40,773 bases of DNA from Gemmatimonadota bacterium (GTDB lineage Bacteria > Gemmatimonadota > Gemmatimonadetes > Gemmatimonadales > Gemmatimonadaceae). Under the pieces are notes generated by a model. It searched no databases. It had not been told where the DNA came from and saw only the letters and a list, made by a program, of their open reading frames with translations. This document shows, in pieces, positions 19,675-32,077 of this stretch (the stretch's first letter is position 1; each line of letters starts with the position of its first letter). Where the stretch lies: assembly GCA_003223425.1 (NCBI GenBank), contig QHVA01000109.1:1-40773 (forward strand), in the 5' to 3' direction. The translations under genes and the position numbers were made by a program.

Positions 19675-22014
19675 ATGTCTCGTCCTTCCTCCCGCACGTT
19701 CTCGCGGTCGAACTCGCGCGCGTTCACTTTGAGATCCCCGCTCGTCTCGCTGCTGGTTTTCGCTGCCGGCACGCTCAGCGCGCAGTCGACAGCCACTCCC
19801 CGGCTAACTTACCCTGCAGCAGCGCGGGGCACGCAGGTCGACGATTATCATGGCACCAGCATCGCCGATCCATACCGCTGGCTCGAGGATGTGGACGCGC
19901 CTGCCACGAAAGCGTGGGTAGAGGCGGAGAACAAGCTGACGGACTCCTTCCTCGCGACGATTCCCGAGCGACCGGCAATCAAGAACCGACTCACTCAGCT
20001 TTGGAATTACGCGCGCTATTCTGCGCCGTCCAAGGAGAACGGACGCTACTTCTATTTCCAGAACACCGGGCTTCAGAATCAGAGCGTGCTGTACGTGCAG
20101 GACGGGCTGGACGCCAGTCCCCGTGTGCTGCTCGATCCGAATACTCTCTCACCTGACGGAACCATTGCGCTCTCGGGCACGGCCGCATCTGATGACGGAC
20201 GCTATTTGGCGTACAGCCTCTCGACGAGCGGATCCGACTGGCAAGAGCTACACGTGCGCGACGTCAGAAGCGCGCGCGACCTGCCCGACACGGTGAAGTG
20301 GGTCAAGTTCTCCGGCATCACGTGGACGCAGGACAACAAAGGCTTTTTCTACTCGCGGTACGACGAGCCGACGTCGGGTAACAAGATGACCAACACCAAC
20401 CGCTTTCATAAGCTCTACTACCATAGGGTTGGGCAGTCGCAGTCACGCGACGAGCTGGTCTATGATCGCCCGGACCAGCCCGACTGGCTGTTCAACGGCA
20501 ACGTCACCGATGATGGCCAGTATCTGATCATCACGGTCTCCCAGGGGACCGATGTCCGGAGGCGTATCTACTTCATCGATCTCGACAACCCGGGCAAGCC
20601 ACAGATCGACAACCCCGTGGTCAGACTGATCGACAAGCTGGACGCCGAATATTCTTTCGTTGGCAACAGGGGCACGATGTTCTACGTGCGTACCGACCGG
20701 AACGCACCGAAAGGCCGCATCGTAGCGATAAACATCGACAACCCCCGCGAAGAGCGCTGGAACACGATCATTCCCGAGAGCAAGGATGCTCTTGTTGATG
20801 CGACGACGGCTGGCGACGACATCGTCGCCAACTATCTGCAGGATGCGCATTCGAGCGTGCGTTTCTTCAGCGGCGCACGGGGGGACGACCGACGCGAGCA
20901 GCGTCCGCGCGGACAGCAGCCGCAACAGCCACCGCGCAATCCCGGCAACATTTACGATGACACTAGCACCGCTCCGATCGTAACGCGCGACCGGGGGCAA
21001 CAGCTCGGTGGGGGATTCACGCTGCGCGGAGAGCTGCCGCTGCCGGCGGTCGGAACGGTGGGCGAAATCCACGGGCGTCAGGGCGACAACGAAATGTTCT
21101 ACAGCTTTACGTCGTTCCTCTATCCAACCACGATCTACCGCTACGACGTCAAGTCGCGCAGCAACGACGTGTTCAGAGCGCCGCCGGTCGCGTTCGATGC
21201 AGCTGCATAGGAAACCCGACAGGTCTTCTACACGAGCAAAGATGGAACGCGGGTTCCGATGTTCATCACCGCGAAAAAGGGCATCCAGCTCGACGGAAGC
21301 AACCCAACGCTGCTCTACGCCTACGGCGGCTTCAACATTTCTATGACTCCAACGTTCTCCGCCGCCAACATTGACTGGATGGAGATGGGCGGAATCTATG
21401 CGCTCGCGAATCTCAGAGGCGGCGGCGAATACGGAAAGGACTGGCACGAGGGCGGCATGCTGGCGAAGAAGCAGAACGTGTTCGACGATTTCATCGCCGC
21501 CGCTGAATACCTGGTCAAGGAGAAGTACACGTCGACTCCCAAGCTCGCCATCCGCGGCGGCTCGAACGGCGGACTGCTGATTGGCGCAGTGATGAATCAG
21601 CGGCCCGATCTATTCGGCGCCGCGCTTCCCGAGGTCGGCGTGATGGACATGCTGCGCTTCCAGAAGTTCACAATTGGCTGGGCGTGGACTTCGGACTACG
21701 GCTCATCGGAGAATCCGGACCAGTTCAAATACCTGCGAGCGTATTCACCCCTTCACAACATCAAACCCGGAACCTGTTATCCACCTACGCTTGCTTTTAC
21801 TGCCGATCACGACGATCGCGTCGTTCCCGGGCACACCTTCAAGTACGTGGCGACGCTCCAGGCGGCTGAGAGCTGTGCCAATCCGGTTCTGGTGAGGATC
21901 GAGACGAAGGCTGGGCACGGCGCGGGCAAACCGACGAGCAAGCTGATCGACGAAGCAGCGGATAGATTTGCATTCCTCGTGAAGGAGCTGCACATGAGAC
22001 CCACGCTCCGGTAG
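19675..22014 (+). pseudogene. Prolyl oligopeptidase (S9A family) interrupted by in-frame TAG at 21208-21210
   Basis: 19675-21210 encodes signal peptide plus propeller (DPYRWLEDVDAPATKAWVEAEN, YSFTSFLYPTTIYRYD); 21211-22014 continues in the same frame as [20 protein letters not shown]...GGSNGGLL...DHDDRV...GHGAG. Confidence 0.9.
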
Positions 22015-24134: not shown

Positions 24135-24333
24135 CTGCGGACTGCGGGCCAAGTGCATTGCGGACTGCTGACTAATTGCGGATTGGGAAACCTACTTCGG
24201 ACTGCGAAACTAACGGCTGCGAATTGCGAACTGCGGACAACAGCCTGCGCGCCGAGAAGTCCGTAGTGCGCAGTTAGTCCCCCAATCCGCGATTAGTCAG
24301 CAGTCCGCAATGCCGTTGGTCCGCAATCCGCAG
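24135..24333. repeat. Long intergenic inverted repeat (~51-bp arms, 93-nt loop)
   Basis: Arm 24137-24187 vs reverse complement of 24281-24331: 46/51 identical; gcggattggg and ttgcggactgctgactaat conserved. Confidence 0.88.
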
Positions 24334-24341
24334 TCCCGACC

Positions 24342-24370
24342 TTGCAGCCGAGCCTGCCGCGCACTACTAT
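24342..24370 (+). promoter_or_regulatory. Candidate sigma70-like promoter for the metH leader
   Basis: TTGCAG (24342-24347) - 17 nt - TACTAT (24365-24370), just upstream of the riboswitch. Confidence 0.4.
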
Positions 24371-24392
24371 AGTGAAGGCGACAACTGAACCC

Positions 24393-24445
24393 CGTGGCGA
24401 TTTAAGGCAACTTGCGGCCACGTTAAACAATCCGCTAAAGCGCTC
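24393..24445 (+). ncRNA. SAM-II (SAM_alpha)-like riboswitch aptamer
   Basis: CGTGGC-GATTTAA-GGCAACTTGCG-GCCACG-TTAAACAATCC-GCTAAAG: P1 CGTGGC/GCCACG plus GATTTAA, TTGC and GCTAAA elements of the SAM-II class; directly upstream of metH. Confidence 0.88.
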
Positions 24446-24472
24446 GCCCGGCGCTTACGCGCGGGCTTTTTT
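24446..24472 (+). terminator. Rho-independent terminator, probable riboswitch expression platform
   Basis: GCCCGGCGCTTACGCGCGGGC (8-bp stem with one bulge) followed by TTTTTT. Confidence 0.85.
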
Positions 24473-24543
24473 GTTATCGTTCCGCGCCGGAGCGAGCGGC
24501 GAAGCGAATATTCGTCGCTGAGGATCTGATCCGTAATACGAAG

Positions 24544-27500
24544 ATGACCGAACGGCACATCGAATCACCCTATCTCCAAGCATTAGAGCGCCGAGTGCTG
24601 GTTTACGACGGCGCGATGGGGACGAACATCCAGCGGCAGAACCTTTCGGCCGAGGATTTCGGCGGAAAGGCGCTGGAAGGGTGCAACGATCATCTCGTTT
24701 TGACGCGTCCGGACGTCATCCAGGGCATCCACGAATCGTTTCTCGCCGTGGGCTGTGATGTGGTGGAGACGTGCACGTTCCAGTCGACTCCACGTCGTCT
24801 CAAAGAGTGGGGTCTGGGCGACAAAGTTCGCGACATCAATGTTGCTGCGGCGCAACTCGCCCGCGCCGCCTGCAAAAAGTTCGAGACGCCGGACCGGCCG
24901 CGCTTCGTGGCGGCATCGATGGGCCCAACTGGAATGCTGCCCTCCAGCTCCGATCCGGTGCTCTCGAAGATCTCGTACGACGAGCTCGCCGCGAACTACT
25001 ACGAACAGGCGAAGTATCTGGTCGAAGGCAGCGTCGATCTTCTGCTGATCGAGACTTCGCAGGACATCCTCGAGGTCAAAGCGGCGGTCGCGGGAATCGA
25101 GAAGCTGTTCGCGGAGCTCGGTCGGCGGATTCCGATACAGACGCAGGTCACGCTCGACGTAAGTGGCCGCATGCTGCTCGGCACCGACATCGCGAGCGCG
25201 ATGACGACACTCGAAGCACTCAAGGTCGATGTAATCGGATTGAATTGCTCGACTGGCCCGGAGCACATGCGGGAGCCAGTGCGTTACCTGTCCGAGCACG
25301 CAACACTGCCGTTGTCGGTGATTCCGAACGCGGGCCTTCCACTCAATACCGGAGTCGGCGAGGCGGTTTATCCGCTGGAACCGGAGCCGATGGCGACGGC
25401 GCTCGCCGAGTTCGTAAAGGATTTCGGTGTCCGGATTGTGGGCGGGTGTTGCGGTACGACGCCCGCCCACCTTTCAGCCGTTGTCAGTGCCATACGCAGA
25501 GCAGAGCCGCAGGCGAAACCAGCGCATCCGAGCCACGTGCCGCGCGTCAGCTCCGCCATGCGCGCGATCACCCTGCACCAGGACCCGCCGCCCCTCCTGG
25601 TCGGCGAGCGAGTCAACTCGCAAGGGTCGCGAAAAGTGAAGCGACTGCTGTTGGCCGACGACTACGAGGGAATACTCGAGGTTGCGCGTGATCAGGTCGA
25701 TTCAGGTGCGCACGTGCTCGACGTCTGTGTTGCTCTCACGGAGCGCGCAGACGAAGCCGAGCAGATGTCGAAGGTGGTAAAGCTGCTGTCGATGAGCGTG
25801 GAGACGCCGCTGGTGATCGATTCCACCGAGGCAAACGTCATCGAAGCAGCGCTCGAGCACATCCCTGGTCGCGGCATCGTCAACTCCATCAACATGGAGA
25901 ACGGTCGCAAGCGGATCGACGCGGTCGTGCCTTTGGTGAAGAAACACGGAGCGGCGGTGATTGCGCTCACGATTGACGAGATCGGGATGGCCAAGACTCG
26001 CGAGCGGAAGCTCGAGGTCGCGAAAAAAATCTACGATATCGTGGTCGGGGAGTACGGATTGGCGCCGGAAGATCTGATCTACGACGCGCTGACGTTTACG
26101 CTCGCCACCGGCGACGCAGAGTGGATCGAGTCTGGAAAAGAAACGATCGAAGGCATTCGGCTGATCAAGCGCGAGCTGCCGGGCGTTTCTACCATACTCG
26201 GCGTCTCAAACGTGAGCTTTGGTCTGACACCTGATGCACGCGGCGTTCTCAACTCGGTATTCCTGCATCATTGTGTCCAGGCAGGACTCGACGCCGCGAT
26301 CGTAAACCCAGCGCATATCCGGCCGTACGCTGAGATCTCGTCGCAGGAACGTGAGCTCGCGGACGATCTTGTGTTCAACAAAAGGCCGGAGGCGTTGCAG
26401 CGCTTCATCGAGTACTTCGCGAGCACGGGCGAGGCTGCGTCGGCGGCACAGGTGGAGAAAGAAGATCCGACTGCCGGCATGACTGCCGAGCAGAAAATTC
26501 ACTGGATGATCCTGCATCGAAAGAAAGAAGGAATCGAAGAGCAGCTGGATGCGGCAGGGGTTCGCAAGGATCCGGTGCGCGTGCTCAACGACGTGCTGTT
26601 ACCGGCGATGAAAGAAGTCGGCGACAAGTTCGGTGCCGGAGAGCTGATTCTCCCGTTCGTTCTCCAGTCCGCCGAGGTGATGAAGAAAGCCGTAAGGCAT
26701 CTCGAGCAATTCCTCGAGAAGGCGGAAGGCTTCACCAAGGGCAAAGTCGTACTGGCTACCGTCTACGGTGACGTGCACGACATCGGCAAATCGCTCGTCA
26801 ACACGATTCTTTCCAACAACGGCTACACCGTCTTCGACCTCGGCAAGCAGGTACCCGTGAACGCGATTCTCGACAAGGCGGTCGAGGTGAGCGCCGACGC
26901 GATTGGCCTTAGCGCGCTGCTGGTTTCGACGTCGAAGCAGATGCCGCTTTGCGTGCAGGAGCTCGACAAGCGCGGCATGCAGATCCCCGTTCTGATCGGA
27001 GGCGCGGCAATCAATCGTCGCTTCGGTCGCCGAGCGTTGTTCGTGGAGGGCGAGCGTGCGTACGAATCGGGCGTGTTCTACTGCAAGGACGCGTTCGAGG
27101 GACTCGAGACGATGGACGTGCTCCAGGATCCGCAGGAGCGCGACAAATTCGTGGTCAGGAATCTCGAGGAAGCGCGAAGCGACGTCTTCCTCCATACCAC
27201 CGTTGGGAAGGATATCGCGGTGGGGGATGCCGCCGGCGCGCGAAGCGACGTCGCGTCCGATAATCGAGTGCCATCACCGCCGTTCTGGGGGACCCGGGTC
27301 ATTCGCGATGTTCCGCTCGACGAAGTCTTCGATCTGCTCGATCTCGACGAACTGTATCGACTGCAGTGGGGCGCGCGCGGCTCCGGTGATCAATACAAAT
27401 CGACCATTAAGATTGAATTCGAGCCCACGCTCGAGCGGTTGAAGAAAGACGCAAAAAAGAATGGCTGGATCAAACCGCAAGTGGTCTACGGTTACTTCCC

Positions 27501-28077
27501 CGCTCAATCGCAGGGCAACGACGTCATCATTTACGATCCAGCGGCGTACTCGAGCGATGGCGGCTCGCTGCGCGAGATCGCGCGATTTCATTTTCCGCGT
27601 ATGGTCGGCCGGGAGCGCCTCTGTCTCGCCGATTACGTGCGAAGCGTCGATTCAGGAGACGTCGACGTCGTGCCACTGCAGGTCGTCACGGTCGGCAACG
27701 AAGCGACCAGGAGATTCGAGCAGCTGCAGGCAAAGAACGAGTACACCGAAGCGTTCTACTCTCACGGACTCTCCGTTGAAGCCGCCGAAGCTGTCGCGGA
27801 GTGGACGCATCGGCGCATCAGAAAGGAGCTCGAAGTCGAGAGCGGCAAGCGTTATTCATGGGGCTACGGTGCGTGTCCCGATCTGGATGATCACGTCACC
27901 GTCTTCAAGCTTCTTCCCGCCAGGGAAGCGCTGGGCATGGAGCTCACCGAGGCATTTCAGCTATTGCCCGAGCAATCGACTGCAGCAGTGATCATCCATC
28001 ACCCGGACGCGAAGTATTACGCCGTCCGCGGCACGAGCTCCGGCGTTTCCAGTCAAGCGGAGGCTGCCGTTGCCTGA
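24544..28077 (+). CDS. metH: Cobalamin-dependent methionine synthase
   Basis: 1177 aa; Hcy domain GCCGTTPAHL; pterin-binding NSINMENGRKRID; B12 motif GDVHDIGKSLV; activation domain RYSWGYGACPDLDDH. Confidence 0.97.
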   Translation: MTERHIESPYLQALERRVLVYDGAMGTNIQRQNLSAEDFGGKALEGCNDHLVLTRPDVIQGIHESFLAVGCDVVETCTFQSTPRRLKEWGLGDKVRDINVAAAQLARAACKKFETPDRPRFVAASMGPTGMLPSSSDPVLSKISYDELAANYYEQAKYLVEGSVDLLLIETSQDILEVKAAVAGIEKLFAELGRRIPIQTQVTLDVSGRMLLGTDIASAMTTLEALKVDVIGLNCSTGPEHMREPVRYLSEHATLPLSVIPNAGLPLNTGVGEAVYPLEPEPMATALAEFVKDFGVRIVGGCCGTTPAHLSAVVSAIRRAEPQAKPAHPSHVPRVSSAMRAITLHQDPPPLLVGERVNSQGSRKVKRLLLADDYEGILEVARDQVDSGAHVLDVCVALTERADEAEQMSKVVKLLSMSVETPLVIDSTEANVIEAALEHIPGRGIVNSINMENGRKRIDAVVPLVKKHGAAVIALTIDEIGMAKTRERKLEVAKKIYDIVVGEYGLAPEDLIYDALTFTLATGDAEWIESGKETIEGIRLIKRELPGVSTILGVSNVSFGLTPDARGVLNSVFLHHCVQAGLDAAIVNPAHIRPYAEISSQERELADDLVFNKRPEALQRFIEYFASTGEAASAAQVEKEDPTAGMTAEQKIHWMILHRKKEGIEEQLDAAGVRKDPVRVLNDVLLPAMKEVGDKFGAGELILPFVLQSAEVMKKAVRHLEQFLEKAEGFTKGKVVLATVYGDVHDIGKSLVNTILSNNGYTVFDLGKQVPVNAILDKAVEVSADAIGLSALLVSTSKQMPLCVQELDKRGMQIPVLIGGAAINRRFGRRALFVEGERAYESGVFYCKDAFEGLETMDVLQDPQERDKFVVRNLEEARSDVFLHTTVGKDIAVGDAAGARSDVASDNRVPSPPFWGTRVIRDVPLDEVFDLLDLDELYRLQWGARGSGDQYKSTIKIEFEPTLERLKKDAKKNGWIKPQVVYGYFPAQSQGNDVIIYDPAAYSSDGGSLREIARFHFPRMVGRERLCLADYVRSVDSGDVDVVPLQVVTVGNEATRRFEQLQAKNEYTEAFYSHGLSVEAAEAVAEWTHRRIRKELEVESGKRYSWGYGACPDLDDHVTVFKLLPAREALGMELTEAFQLLPEQSTAAVIIHHPDAKYYAVRGTSSGVSSQAEAAVA

Positions 28078-29965
28078 AAACCCGCTAATCACTCGGCTAC
28101 TCGACCCGCAGCAGGTCATCGTCTTCGATGGCGCGATGGGCACAATGCTCTACAACAAGGGTGTGTTCATCAATCAGTGCTATGACGAGCTGAACCTTCG
28201 GGCGCCCGATCTCGTGCGCGACGTTCACAAGGCGTACAGAAAAGCAGGGGCCGAGGTTCTCGAGACAAACAGCTTCGGCGCGAACCGGATCAAGCTCGAG
28301 CAATACGGGCTCGCAGCACAAGTCGCGGAAATCAATCGCGCGGCGGCGAAAATCGCGCGCGAAGTCGCCGAAGACGATTTGCTTGTCGCGGGCGCAGTTG
28401 GTCCGCTCGGCATTCGTCTCGAGCCATTCGGACCCACCAGCCTCGAGGAAGCGCGAGCGGTGTTTCGCGAGCAGCTCCAGGCACTGAAGGACGGCGGCTG
28501 CGATCTGTTCATACTCGAGACGTTCGCCGATCTTCACGAGATCGAACAAGGAATTCTCGCGGCACGCGAGGTGGATCCGAACATTCCTGTCATTGCACAG
28601 ATGACGATCGGCTCGGATTGTCACACCCCCTACGGCGTAACGGTAGAGGATCTCGCTCAGTCGATCGACGCTTTCGGTGCCGACGTGGTGGGCCTGAATT
28701 GTTCGGTTGGTCCGCAGATCATCCTCGATGCGATCGAGAAGATGGCCCCGGTAACTCGACGCAAGCTGAGCGCGCAGCCAAACGCTGGCATGCCACGAGA
28801 TGTCAGCGGGCGCAGTATGTACATGGCGAGTCCCGAGTACATGGCGACGTACGCGCACCATCTCGTTCAGGCCGGTGCAAAAATCGTCGGCGGCTGCTGT
28901 GGAACTACACCCGACCACATCGCGGCGATGGTAGAGGGAGTGCGCCCGCTGTCACCGCGTCAGGCGCGCGTTGCAATGAAGGAACGTCGACAGACGCACC
29001 CCGATCTCCCGCCCGAGGATCCGGGTGTCGAGCCGGTCCCGTTGGCCGAGCGCTCCAAATGGGGGCGCAAGATCGCAGAGGGAGAGTTCGTTACGTCGGT
29101 AGAGATCGTTCCACCCCGAGGTGTCGATGCGACAAAGATGCTGCGCGACACCGCGGCACTACGCGACGCGGGCGTCGATGCCGTGAATGTGCCCGACGGT
29201 CCTCGCGCGCAGAGCAGAATGGGTGCGCTCCTCACCAGCGTGCTGATCGAGCAGCAGGTCGGAATCGAGACTGTGATCCACTACTGCTGCCGAGACAGAA
29301 ATCTTCTGGGAATGCTGAGCGACCTTCTGGGTGCAGCAGCGGTCGGTCTTCGCAACATGCTTCTCATCACCGGCGATCCGCCAAAGATGGGGCCGTACCC
29401 GAACGCGACCGCCGTGTTCGACATCGATGCGATCGGGCTCACCAACCTCGTTAGTAACCTGAATCGGGGATTGGATCCGGGCGGCAACGCGATCGGCCAG
29501 CCGACTAAGTTCACGATTGGCGTCGGCGTGAATCCGGCCGCGATTGATCCGGGGCAGGAACTCAAACGCTTCGAGTGGAAGGTGGAGGCGGGGGCAGAGT
29601 ACGCGATCACACAGCCGGTGTTCGATGTGATGCAGCTCGAGAAATTCCTCTCGACGATCGAGCACGTACGGATCCCCATCGTCGCGGGGATCTGGCCGCT
29701 GGTCTCGTTGCGCAACGCGGAATTCCTGGCGAATGAGGTACCGGGCGTGGTCGTGCCCCCGCGGATCATCGAGCGCATGCGCGTTGCCAGTGCAAAATCC
29801 AAGGAGGACGGCGTGGCGGAAGGAATTTCGATCGCCCGTGAGATGCTCGAGCGCGTTCGTCCGTACGTGCAGGGAGTGCAGGTTTCAGCGCCGTTCGGAA
29901 AAGTCGAGCTCGCGCTCGAAGTCTTCCGCGATACTCTGGTGCCCACGGAAGCAAGGACAGCGTAG
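28070..29965 (+). CDS. Bifunctional homocysteine S-methyltransferase / 5,10-methylenetetrahydrofolate reductase
   Basis: 631 aa, TTG start overlapping metH; N-terminal VFDGAMGTMLYNKGVFINQCYDELN and GGCCGTTPDHI; C-terminal MTHFR (VTSVEIVPPRGVDATKM, LLITGDPPKMG, EYAITQPVFD). Confidence 0.95.
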   Translation: MPENPLITRLLDPQQVIVFDGAMGTMLYNKGVFINQCYDELNLRAPDLVRDVHKAYRKAGAEVLETNSFGANRIKLEQYGLAAQVAEINRAAAKIAREVAEDDLLVAGAVGPLGIRLEPFGPTSLEEARAVFREQLQALKDGGCDLFILETFADLHEIEQGILAAREVDPNIPVIAQMTIGSDCHTPYGVTVEDLAQSIDAFGADVVGLNCSVGPQIILDAIEKMAPVTRRKLSAQPNAGMPRDVSGRSMYMASPEYMATYAHHLVQAGAKIVGGCCGTTPDHIAAMVEGVRPLSPRQARVAMKERRQTHPDLPPEDPGVEPVPLAERSKWGRKIAEGEFVTSVEIVPPRGVDATKMLRDTAALRDAGVDAVNVPDGPRAQSRMGALLTSVLIEQQVGIETVIHYCCRDRNLLGMLSDLLGAAAVGLRNMLLITGDPPKMGPYPNATAVFDIDAIGLTNLVSNLNRGLDPGGNAIGQPTKFTIGVGVNPAAIDPGQELKRFEWKVEAGAEYAITQPVFDVMQLEKFLSTIEHVRIPIVAGIWPLVSLRNAEFLANEVPGVVVPPRIIERMRVASAKSKEDGVAEGISIAREMLERVRPYVQGVQVSAPFGKVELALEVFRDTLVPTEARTA

Positions 29966-30507
29966 TGTCGATCGCTGAAATTTTCGTCGCGCGCTCCCGC
30001 TACTGGTTGACGAAGGAGTATCCGATCAAGCTTCGCCACTGTCTGAACGCGCTGCCGCGAGGCGCGGTGTGGGCGCGGCCAAACCAGGACTCCAATAGCG
30101 TCGGCAACCTATTGATTCATCTCACCGGCAACGTCACCGAGTGGATTCTGGGCGGCGTTGGCGGACGAAGCTACAAGCGGTATCGCGCCGGCGAATTTGC
30201 ACAGAGGGATGGCGCGGACGCCTCGAAGCTCATGGACGATCTCGAGGGGGTCCTGCGTGAGGCCGATCGGGTTCTCGCGGGATTAACGGAAAAGGACCTC
30301 GAGCGATCGGTCGTGATTCAGGAGCGAGACACGAATGTGCTGGGCGCGATCTATCACGTCGTTGAGCATTTCGCGATGCACACGGGTCAGATCGTGTTTC
30401 TCACCAAGCTTTACGCCCCGGGAAGGATTCAGTTTTACGAAGAAGCCGGCGGGGTGGCGCGCCCCACCTGGCATCGCGGCACTGCTCTGGACGAGGCGCC
30501 GCACTAG
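29965..30507 (+). CDS. DinB-like / DUF1572 family protein
   Basis: 180 aa GTG start; SNSVGNLLIHLTGNVTEWILGGVGG and AIYHVVEHFAMHTGQIVFLTKLY. Confidence 0.82.
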   Translation: MSIAEIFVARSRYWLTKEYPIKLRHCLNALPRGAVWARPNQDSNSVGNLLIHLTGNVTEWILGGVGGRSYKRYRAGEFAQRDGADASKLMDDLEGVLREADRVLAGLTEKDLERSVVIQERDTNVLGAIYHVVEHFAMHTGQIVFLTKLYAPGRIQFYEEAGGVARPTWHRGTALDEAPH

Positions 30508-30540
30508 TCACCCGGTGGTTGCGCCGCCATTTTCCAGATT

Positions 30541-30915
30541 GTGAAGGGAATTCTGATCGTCGATCACGGTTCGCGCAAAGACGAGGCGAATGAGATGCTC
30601 CCGCAGATGGCGGAGCTCATTCAGCGGCTGGCGGGTGAAGGTGTCGTCGTGCGCCATGCCCACATGGAGCTCTCCGATCCAGATATCGCCGAGGGTTTTG
30701 CCGACTGCGTGAGCGCAGGAGCAACGGAGGTAATTGTTTTTCCTTACATGCTTTCCCCCGGCCGCCATTCCACATCCGATATCCCGCGCATGGTCGCTGC
30801 AGTCGCTCGTTCGTTCCCGGGCATCGCCTTCAGTGTGACACCCGCGTTCGGCCTGCACGAAAGACTCGCGGAGGTCGTTCTCGAGCGAGCGGGAGTTGGC
30901 GTCAATGCCAACTGA
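30541..30915 (+). CDS. CbiX/SirB-type sirohydrochlorin chelatase family protein
   Basis: 124 aa GTG start; GILIVDHGSRKDEANEML, ATEVIVFPYMLSPGRHSTSDIP. Confidence 0.88.
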   Translation: MKGILIVDHGSRKDEANEMLPQMAELIQRLAGEGVVVRHAHMELSDPDIAEGFADCVSAGATEVIVFPYMLSPGRHSTSDIPRMVAAVARSFPGIAFSVTPAFGLHERLAEVVLERAGVGVNAN

Positions 30916-32077
30916 GACGACAGCCTCGCCATCGGGGGGAGCACTGACTCTCCTCTCCGAGGAGGAGATCATGTTCCGCGACGCGGTTGCGGCCTTCGCA
31001 GAGGAAGAGGTGCGGCCGCGTGTCGCGGAAATGGAGAAGGCGGGCAAAATCGATCCCGCGCTCCTTCCCAAGTATTTCGAGCTCGGACTGATGGGCATCG
31101 AGGTGCCGGATCAATACGGCGGCGCCGGCGGAACGCTTTTCATGGTGACACTCGCTGTCGAAGAGATCAGCAAGGTTGATGCGGCGGCAGCGATCGTCTG
31201 CGATGTCCAGAACACGCTCGTCAATTATCCGATCCTCCTATACGGCAGCGACGGACAGAAGTCGAAGTACTTGCCGATGCTCACCTCGGACGTCGTCGGG
31301 GCTTACGCACTCTCTGAGTCAGGCTCTGGCTCCGACGCATTCGGTCTCGCCACACGCGCGGAGAAGCGTGGTGACCGGTGGGTGCTGAATGGGCAAAAGC
31401 TATGGATCACCAACGGCGCTGAGGCAGGAGTGTTCGTAGTCTTCGCGAACGCGGATCCGTCGGCTGGTTATCGGGGCATCACCGCGTTCATCATCGAGCG
31501 CGACTTCAAGGGATTCAGGGTCGGCAAGAAGGAAGAAAAGCTGGGCATTCGCGCATCGAGCACGACCGAGCTGCTGCTCGACAACTGCGAAGTCCCCGAC
31601 GAGAATGTACTCGGACCCGTCGGCCAGGGTTACAAGATCGCGATCAACACGCTCAATGAGGGACGAATCGGCATCGGCGCGCAGATGATTGGCATCGCGC
31701 AAGGCGCGCTCGACGCGACGATCAAGTATCTCCAGGAGCGCAAGCAGTTTGGAAAACCGCTGGCTGAATTCCAGGCAATTCAGTTTCAGATTGCGCAGGC
31801 AGCGACCGATGTCGAGGCCGCACGCCTGATGGTTTACAACGCCGCGCGCCTCAAGGACGGCGGCAAGGACATCGTTCGCGAAGGAGCGATGGCCAAGCTC
31901 TTCTCCTCGCAGGTGTGTGAGCGCGTGACTTCATTGTGTGTCGAGTTGTTCGGCGGCTACGGCTACACCAGGGACTATCCCGTAGAGAAGTTTTACCGCG
32001 ATGCCAAGATCGGGACCATCTATGAGGGTACGTCCAATATGCAGTTGCAGACCATTGCTAAGGCGGTACTCAAGTAG
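30905..32077 (+). CDS. Acyl-CoA dehydrogenase
   Basis: YALSESGSGSDAFGLATRAEKRGDRWVLNGQKLWITNG and LFGGYGYTRDYPVEKFYRDAKIGTIYEGTSNMQ. Confidence 0.95.
   Translation: MPTETTASPSGGALTLLSEEEIMFRDAVAAFAEEEVRPRVAEMEKAGKIDPALLPKYFELGLMGIEVPDQYGGAGGTLFMVTLAVEEISKVDAAAAIVCDVQNTLVNYPILLYGSDGQKSKYLPMLTSDVVGAYALSESGSGSDAFGLATRAEKRGDRWVLNGQKLWITNGAEAGVFVVFANADPSAGYRGITAFIIERDFKGFRVGKKEEKLGIRASSTTELLLDNCEVPDENVLGPVGQGYKIAINTLNEGRIGIGAQMIGIAQGALDATIKYLQERKQFGKPLAEFQAIQFQIAQAATDVEAARLMVYNAARLKDGGKDIVREGAMAKLFSSQVCERVTSLCVELFGGYGYTRDYPVEKFYRDAKIGTIYEGTSNMQLQTIAKAVLK

Follow-up and report, generated by a model that had tools for sequence, protein, structure and literature searches.

The intergenic DNA in front of metH in this Gemmatimonadaceae genome raises the question of which RNA element it encodes and how such an element would act on the genes downstream. 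Descriptions of SAM-II riboswitches concern proteobacteria and a small number of Bacteroidetes, and an earlier note, which proposed one here, remarked that the class is best known in proteobacteria; the host is a Gemmatimonadaceae bacterium and no proteobacterium.

The SAM-II aptamer and its surroundings

When the window, i.e. the whole stretch of 40,773 bases analysed here, was searched with cmscan against Rfam 15, the sole match above the gathering threshold was RF00521 (SAM_alpha, SAM-II) at 24384-24459 on the plus strand, with a score of 45.4 bits (gathering cut-off 36), an E value of 3.3e-7 for the whole window and all 79 model positions covered. The covariance model upholds the class assignment of the earlier note, and the stretch is, as judged from its sequence, a SAM-II riboswitch and a predicted SAM sensor. 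The features of the locus are as follows.

24342-24370, plus strand: promoter-like pair TTGCAG (24342-24347) and TACTAT (24365-24370), separated by a 17-base spacer
24384-24459, plus strand: SAM-II aptamer (RF00521), covariance-model match
24393-24398 and 24417-24422, plus strand: P1 stem CGUGGC/GCCACG, the loop of which carries the P2 5' strand
24399-24403, plus strand: GAUUU block
24406-24408 (GGC) and 24411-24413 (CUU), plus strand: pieces of the P2 5' strand in the P1 loop, P2 pairing presumed from the known SAM-II fold
24411-24415, plus strand: CUUGC block
24434-24439, plus strand: GCUAAA block
24434-24444, plus strand: P2 3' strand GCUAAAGCGCU, which doubles as 5' half of the putative antiterminator
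24432-24464, plus strand: putative antiterminator, AAGCGCU (24438-24444) with GGCGCUU (24450-24456) and outer CCGC (24432-24435) with GCGG (24461-24464)
24446-24472, plus strand: intrinsic terminator, hairpin 24446-24466 and U6 24467-24472, model energy -13.6 kcal/mol
24544-28077, plus strand: metH, cobalamin-dependent methionine synthase, 1177 aa, with S-methyl_trans, Pterin_bind, B12-binding_2, B12-binding and Met_synt_B12 domains
28070-29965, plus strand: bifunctional homocysteine S-methyltransferase/methylenetetrahydrofolate reductase (S-methyl_trans and MTHFR domains), overlapping the end of metH
29965-30507, plus strand: DinB_2/DUF1572 gene, tightly packed
30541-30915, plus strand: CbiX gene, tightly packed
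30896-32077, plus strand: acyl-CoA dehydrogenase gene, tightly packed

The P1 stem and the GAUUU, UUGC, UUAAA and GCUAAA blocks, which are conserved in the SAM-II class, are all present in the window copy, and the aptamer blocks quoted in the earlier note had been located correctly. In P2, pairing of CUU with AAG and of GGC with GCU is possible; cognate P2 helices of at least three pairs occur in 92% of leaders and mismatched ones in 79%, a weak contrast, the segments being short and GC-rich. Within the host genome, which is 86% complete, the window copy is the only RF00521 copy found, and no SAM-I element (RF00162) was found there. A permissive Rfam scan of 24300-24600 gave Acido-Lenti-1 as its only match, which lay below threshold and was discarded as a chance match.

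The start of the element had been placed at 24365, but the TACTAT at this position is a -10-like promoter sequence and not part of the aptamer. TTGCAG-17-TACTAT is a weak match to the sigma-70 consensus; a loose pattern of this type precedes 91 of 153 Gemmatimonadota copies, with 2.5 expected from mononucleotide shuffling. A stricter promoter and terminator scanner found nothing at the window leader, the promoter being far from consensus and the terminator stem bulged. Just 5' of the promoter, the intergenic space 24200-24340 is taken up by short, degenerate repeats (variants of GCAGTCCGCAAT), and further upstream a prolyl oligopeptidase is encoded in two frames (Peptidase_S9_N 19675-21210, Peptidase_S9 21259-22014), which points to a frameshift or an assembly error. 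The position upstream of metH was rightly recognized, as the 1177-aa product carries all MetH domains; the metH genes closest to it (90-91% identity) come from MAGs, most of which carry the label Gemmatimonadaceae. Judging by their spacing, the genes at 29965-32077 may belong to the same operon.

Terminator, antiterminator and proposed switch

Between the aptamer and metH lies an intrinsic terminator, the stem of which (GCCCGGCG/CGCGCGGGC) comprises 5+3 pairs around a one-base bulge. The hairpin had been described as an 8-bp stem with U6; it is indeed a terminator, but the stem is interrupted, and a simple scan misses it because of the bulge. The fold energy of the whole leader is ordinary for its composition (z -0.18). 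AAGCGCU can pair with GGCGCUU in seven pairs, one of them U.G (-8.2 kcal/mol alone), and with the outer CCGC/GCGG the local segment reaches -15.2 kcal/mol, against -13.6 kcal/mol for the terminator; by these model values the antiterminator is predicted to be near-isoenergetic with the terminator. Prefix folding indicated that the antiterminator is the preferred structure of the nascent chain up to the point at which the final base of the terminator arm is added, and the complementarity of GCUAAAGCGC to the terminator apex exceeds that of shuffled versions of the segment (p = 0.010). The antiterminator would exclude the terminator stem and re-use the 3' strand of the pseudoknot helix P2; in these respects the AAGCGC/GCGCTT pairing proposed earlier is retained, its length being extended to seven pairs plus CCGC/GCGG. 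The P1-loop strand was rejected as a terminator partner in the window and the other metH leaders (mean 3.55 pairs, 3.49 after shuffling).

Computation supplied the match to the aptamer model, the terminator and the alternative pairing, together with their recurrence in relatives; SAM binding, the sign of the regulation and the extent of the operon we infer. The most probable reading, to which we assign a probability of about 0.87, is that the SAM-II switch turns the metH operon off at the level of transcription. In the absence of SAM, GCUAAAGCGCU would pair with GGCGCUU once the latter is transcribed, and this antiterminator would tie up the terminator's upper part, letting the polymerase continue into metH and the homocysteine S-methyltransferase/MTHFR gene. 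With SAM, the P1 loop would pair with GCUAAAGCGCU to give P2, which would block the antiterminator and leave the GCCCGGCG/CGCGCGGGC-U6 hairpin to terminate transcription. As GCUAAAGCGCU is required for P2 as well as for the antiterminator, SAM would swap the latter for the terminator.

Distribution and conservation in Gemmatimonadota

RF00521 was detected in 266 of 399 Gemmatimonadota genomes and in 18 of 19 genomes of the host genus; 14 control genomes gave no match. For the comparison of relatives, 135 loci from two kinds of search and 92 fetched regions were used, and 155 distinct copies were recovered from them with a motif search. The first gene downstream of these copies is metH in 95 cases, followed by metF (13), hom (8), thrC (8), metX (6) and metZ/Y (5) and, more rarely, panB (5), a gene for a RimK-like ATP-grasp protein (3) or for a PLP aminotransferase (2). 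By these matches, SAM-II is widespread in Gemmatimonadota with metH as its main target, the type of switch being already known. No description of SAM-II in this phylum was found in the open-access literature searched, although Rfam may list such matches, and papers that mention both Gemmatimonas aurantiaca and riboswitches apparently deal with other subjects, as far as title and abstract tell. An unusual target is panB (ketopantoate hydroxymethyltransferase; folate-dependent, coenzyme A), which is preceded by SAM-II and a terminator in L002(-), L010, L022, L025, L029 and L138. The RimK-like ATP-grasp gene follows the aptamer in L002(+), L135 and L217, and in L207 the downstream gene appears by its sequence to encode a TonB-dependent receptor.

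A terminator-like hairpin, defined as a hairpin with a T-rich tail and an energy below -8 kcal/mol, follows 144 of the 155 distinct copies, against 45 after shuffling; applied to coding DNA 400 bases further on, the same criterion gave 24 of 149. Within the genus, each of the 14 metH leaders examined shows a rival antiterminator fold. Among the closest relatives, L120 alone keeps the AA/UU end of the helix; the others retain only GCGCU/RGCGC and the outer pairs, and the GCGC/GCGC core of four pairs is invariant throughout the family to which the window leader belongs. The variable bases that follow GCUAAA in metH leaders occur with matching partners: AC with GU in 18 of 24 leaders, AA with UU in 7 of 13 and GA with UC in 3 of 4; a perfect helix of at least five pairs is present in 13 of 39 GC leaders. 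Contingency (Fisher) tests on 97 dereplicated leaders, which ignore relatedness, associated the GCGC core with GC leaders (27/32 vs 19/65 others, p = 3e-7), GUUUU or CGUUU with AC leaders (16/26 vs 3/71, p = 4e-9) and a U-run with AA (p = 0.003). With their own terminator apex, 27% of metH leaders form at least six Watson-Crick pairs; with the apex of leaders that have other bases at the two variable positions, the figure is 5%. In another family the whole GCUAAA block is paired, as in L196 (GCUAAAACGC/GCGUUUUAGC). A tree of 91 metH proteins requires only 16 changes of the two variable bases, and a tree-based independent-pairs test had too few contrasts for significance (AC 1-2 with and 0 against; GC mixed). 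Across metH leaders the antiterminator strands appear to covary, AA/UU more weakly, but few of these substitutions count as independent on the tree.

These few independent changes and the invariant GCGC/GCGC core of the window's family would also fit an antiterminator that is an accident of a GC-rich, self-complementary GCGC, with P2 acting sterically on the terminator. We consider this unlikely, since other families retain the pairing with different bases (AAAACGC/GCGUUUU, AAAGA/UCUUU) and in most metH leaders the base adjoining GCGC is paired, be it as U-A, U.G or C-G. Still less probable is an action of the aptamer on translation, in which P2 would mask the ribosome-binding site and the hairpin would be incidental: a design of this kind exists in the phylum, in eight metH leaders of a related family that lack a strong terminator and have the start codon directly after P2 (GCUAAAAAGCCAGGAUG), but the metH start of the window (24544) lies 104 bases past GCUAAA, beyond the U6 hairpin. 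That the terminator is constitutive or part of another transcript and the aptamer a relic is the least credible reading; the genome holds a single aptamer copy and the evidence is that of sequence, yet aptamer core and terminator are kept together before the same gene in nearly all relatives, and relics would decay.

Besides the metH layout, leaders of metF, hom, thrC, metX, metZ and the RimK-like gene have a P1-loop P2 strand complementary to the 5' or apical part of the terminator, e.g. GCCGCC(G)/(C)GGCGGC, GGAGGC/GCCUCC, CGAGGC/GCCUCG and ACGGCAA/UUGCCGU (among others in L126, L147, L154, L183, L187, L199, L202, L217, L221 and L225). At least six such pairs are present in 31 of 42 of these non-metH leaders against 4 of 89 metH leaders; taken singly, the p-values are modest owing to the high GC content of the sequences, and several leaders are closely related to one another. 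An antiterminator formed with the P1-loop strand is possibly a second type of SAM-II platform. The eight metH leaders of the related family, L007, L008, L011, L014, L016, L021, L024 and L142, have no strong terminator, and in most of them the start codon follows about 10 bases after GCUAAA (e.g. AAGCCAGGAUG), which suggests a translational design. Whether the phylum has a SAM-II attenuation regulon in which the terminator would copy the partner of a gene-chosen P2 strand (the 3' strand for metH; the P1-loop strand for metF, hom, metX, metZ and some thrC), with direct translational masking in one metH subgroup, we regard as evenly balanced.

Relation to known SAM-II systems

Alpha- and beta-proteobacteria are known to have SAM-II switches that terminate transcription (PMC1273637, PMC2258182, PMC9373788), and the window would hold a transcriptional SAM-II switch of this known type in a phylum outside the literature searched. 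The earlier view that SAM-II is often linked to translational control does not match what the surveys report, and for metZ of Sinorhizobium meliloti a terminated leader RNA is reported to rise at high SAM (PMC9373788). Listed proteobacterial targets are metA, metX, metY/Z, metC and hom (PMC4239095). By the present findings the class reaches into a soil phylum that is largely uncultured, where metH is its main target. With so many natural leaders, the way in which a pseudoknot aptamer that has no switching P1 communicates with a terminator becomes directly testable; either P2 strand seems to act as the switching strand.

The window shares with the SAM-II elements of Corbino et al. 2005 (PMC1273637) P1, the GAUUU, UUGC, UUAAA and GCUAAA blocks, a promoter just upstream of the aptamer, a terminator after P2 and a methionine gene; it differs in that it stems from Gemmatimonadota, where metH is the main target. 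SAM-linked premature termination yielding a short leader RNA, predicted from sequence for the window, is common to the S. meliloti metZ switch (PMC9373788), which has another gene and another expression-platform sequence. Among the alphaproteobacterial platforms compared (three plasmid loci), the Shinella leader L229 (plasmid NZ_CP069303) likewise has a P2 3' strand, GGCCGG, with a complement in the 5' arm of its terminator, CCGGCC; the pairing in L229 engages the base of the terminator arm, whereas that in the window engages its upper part.
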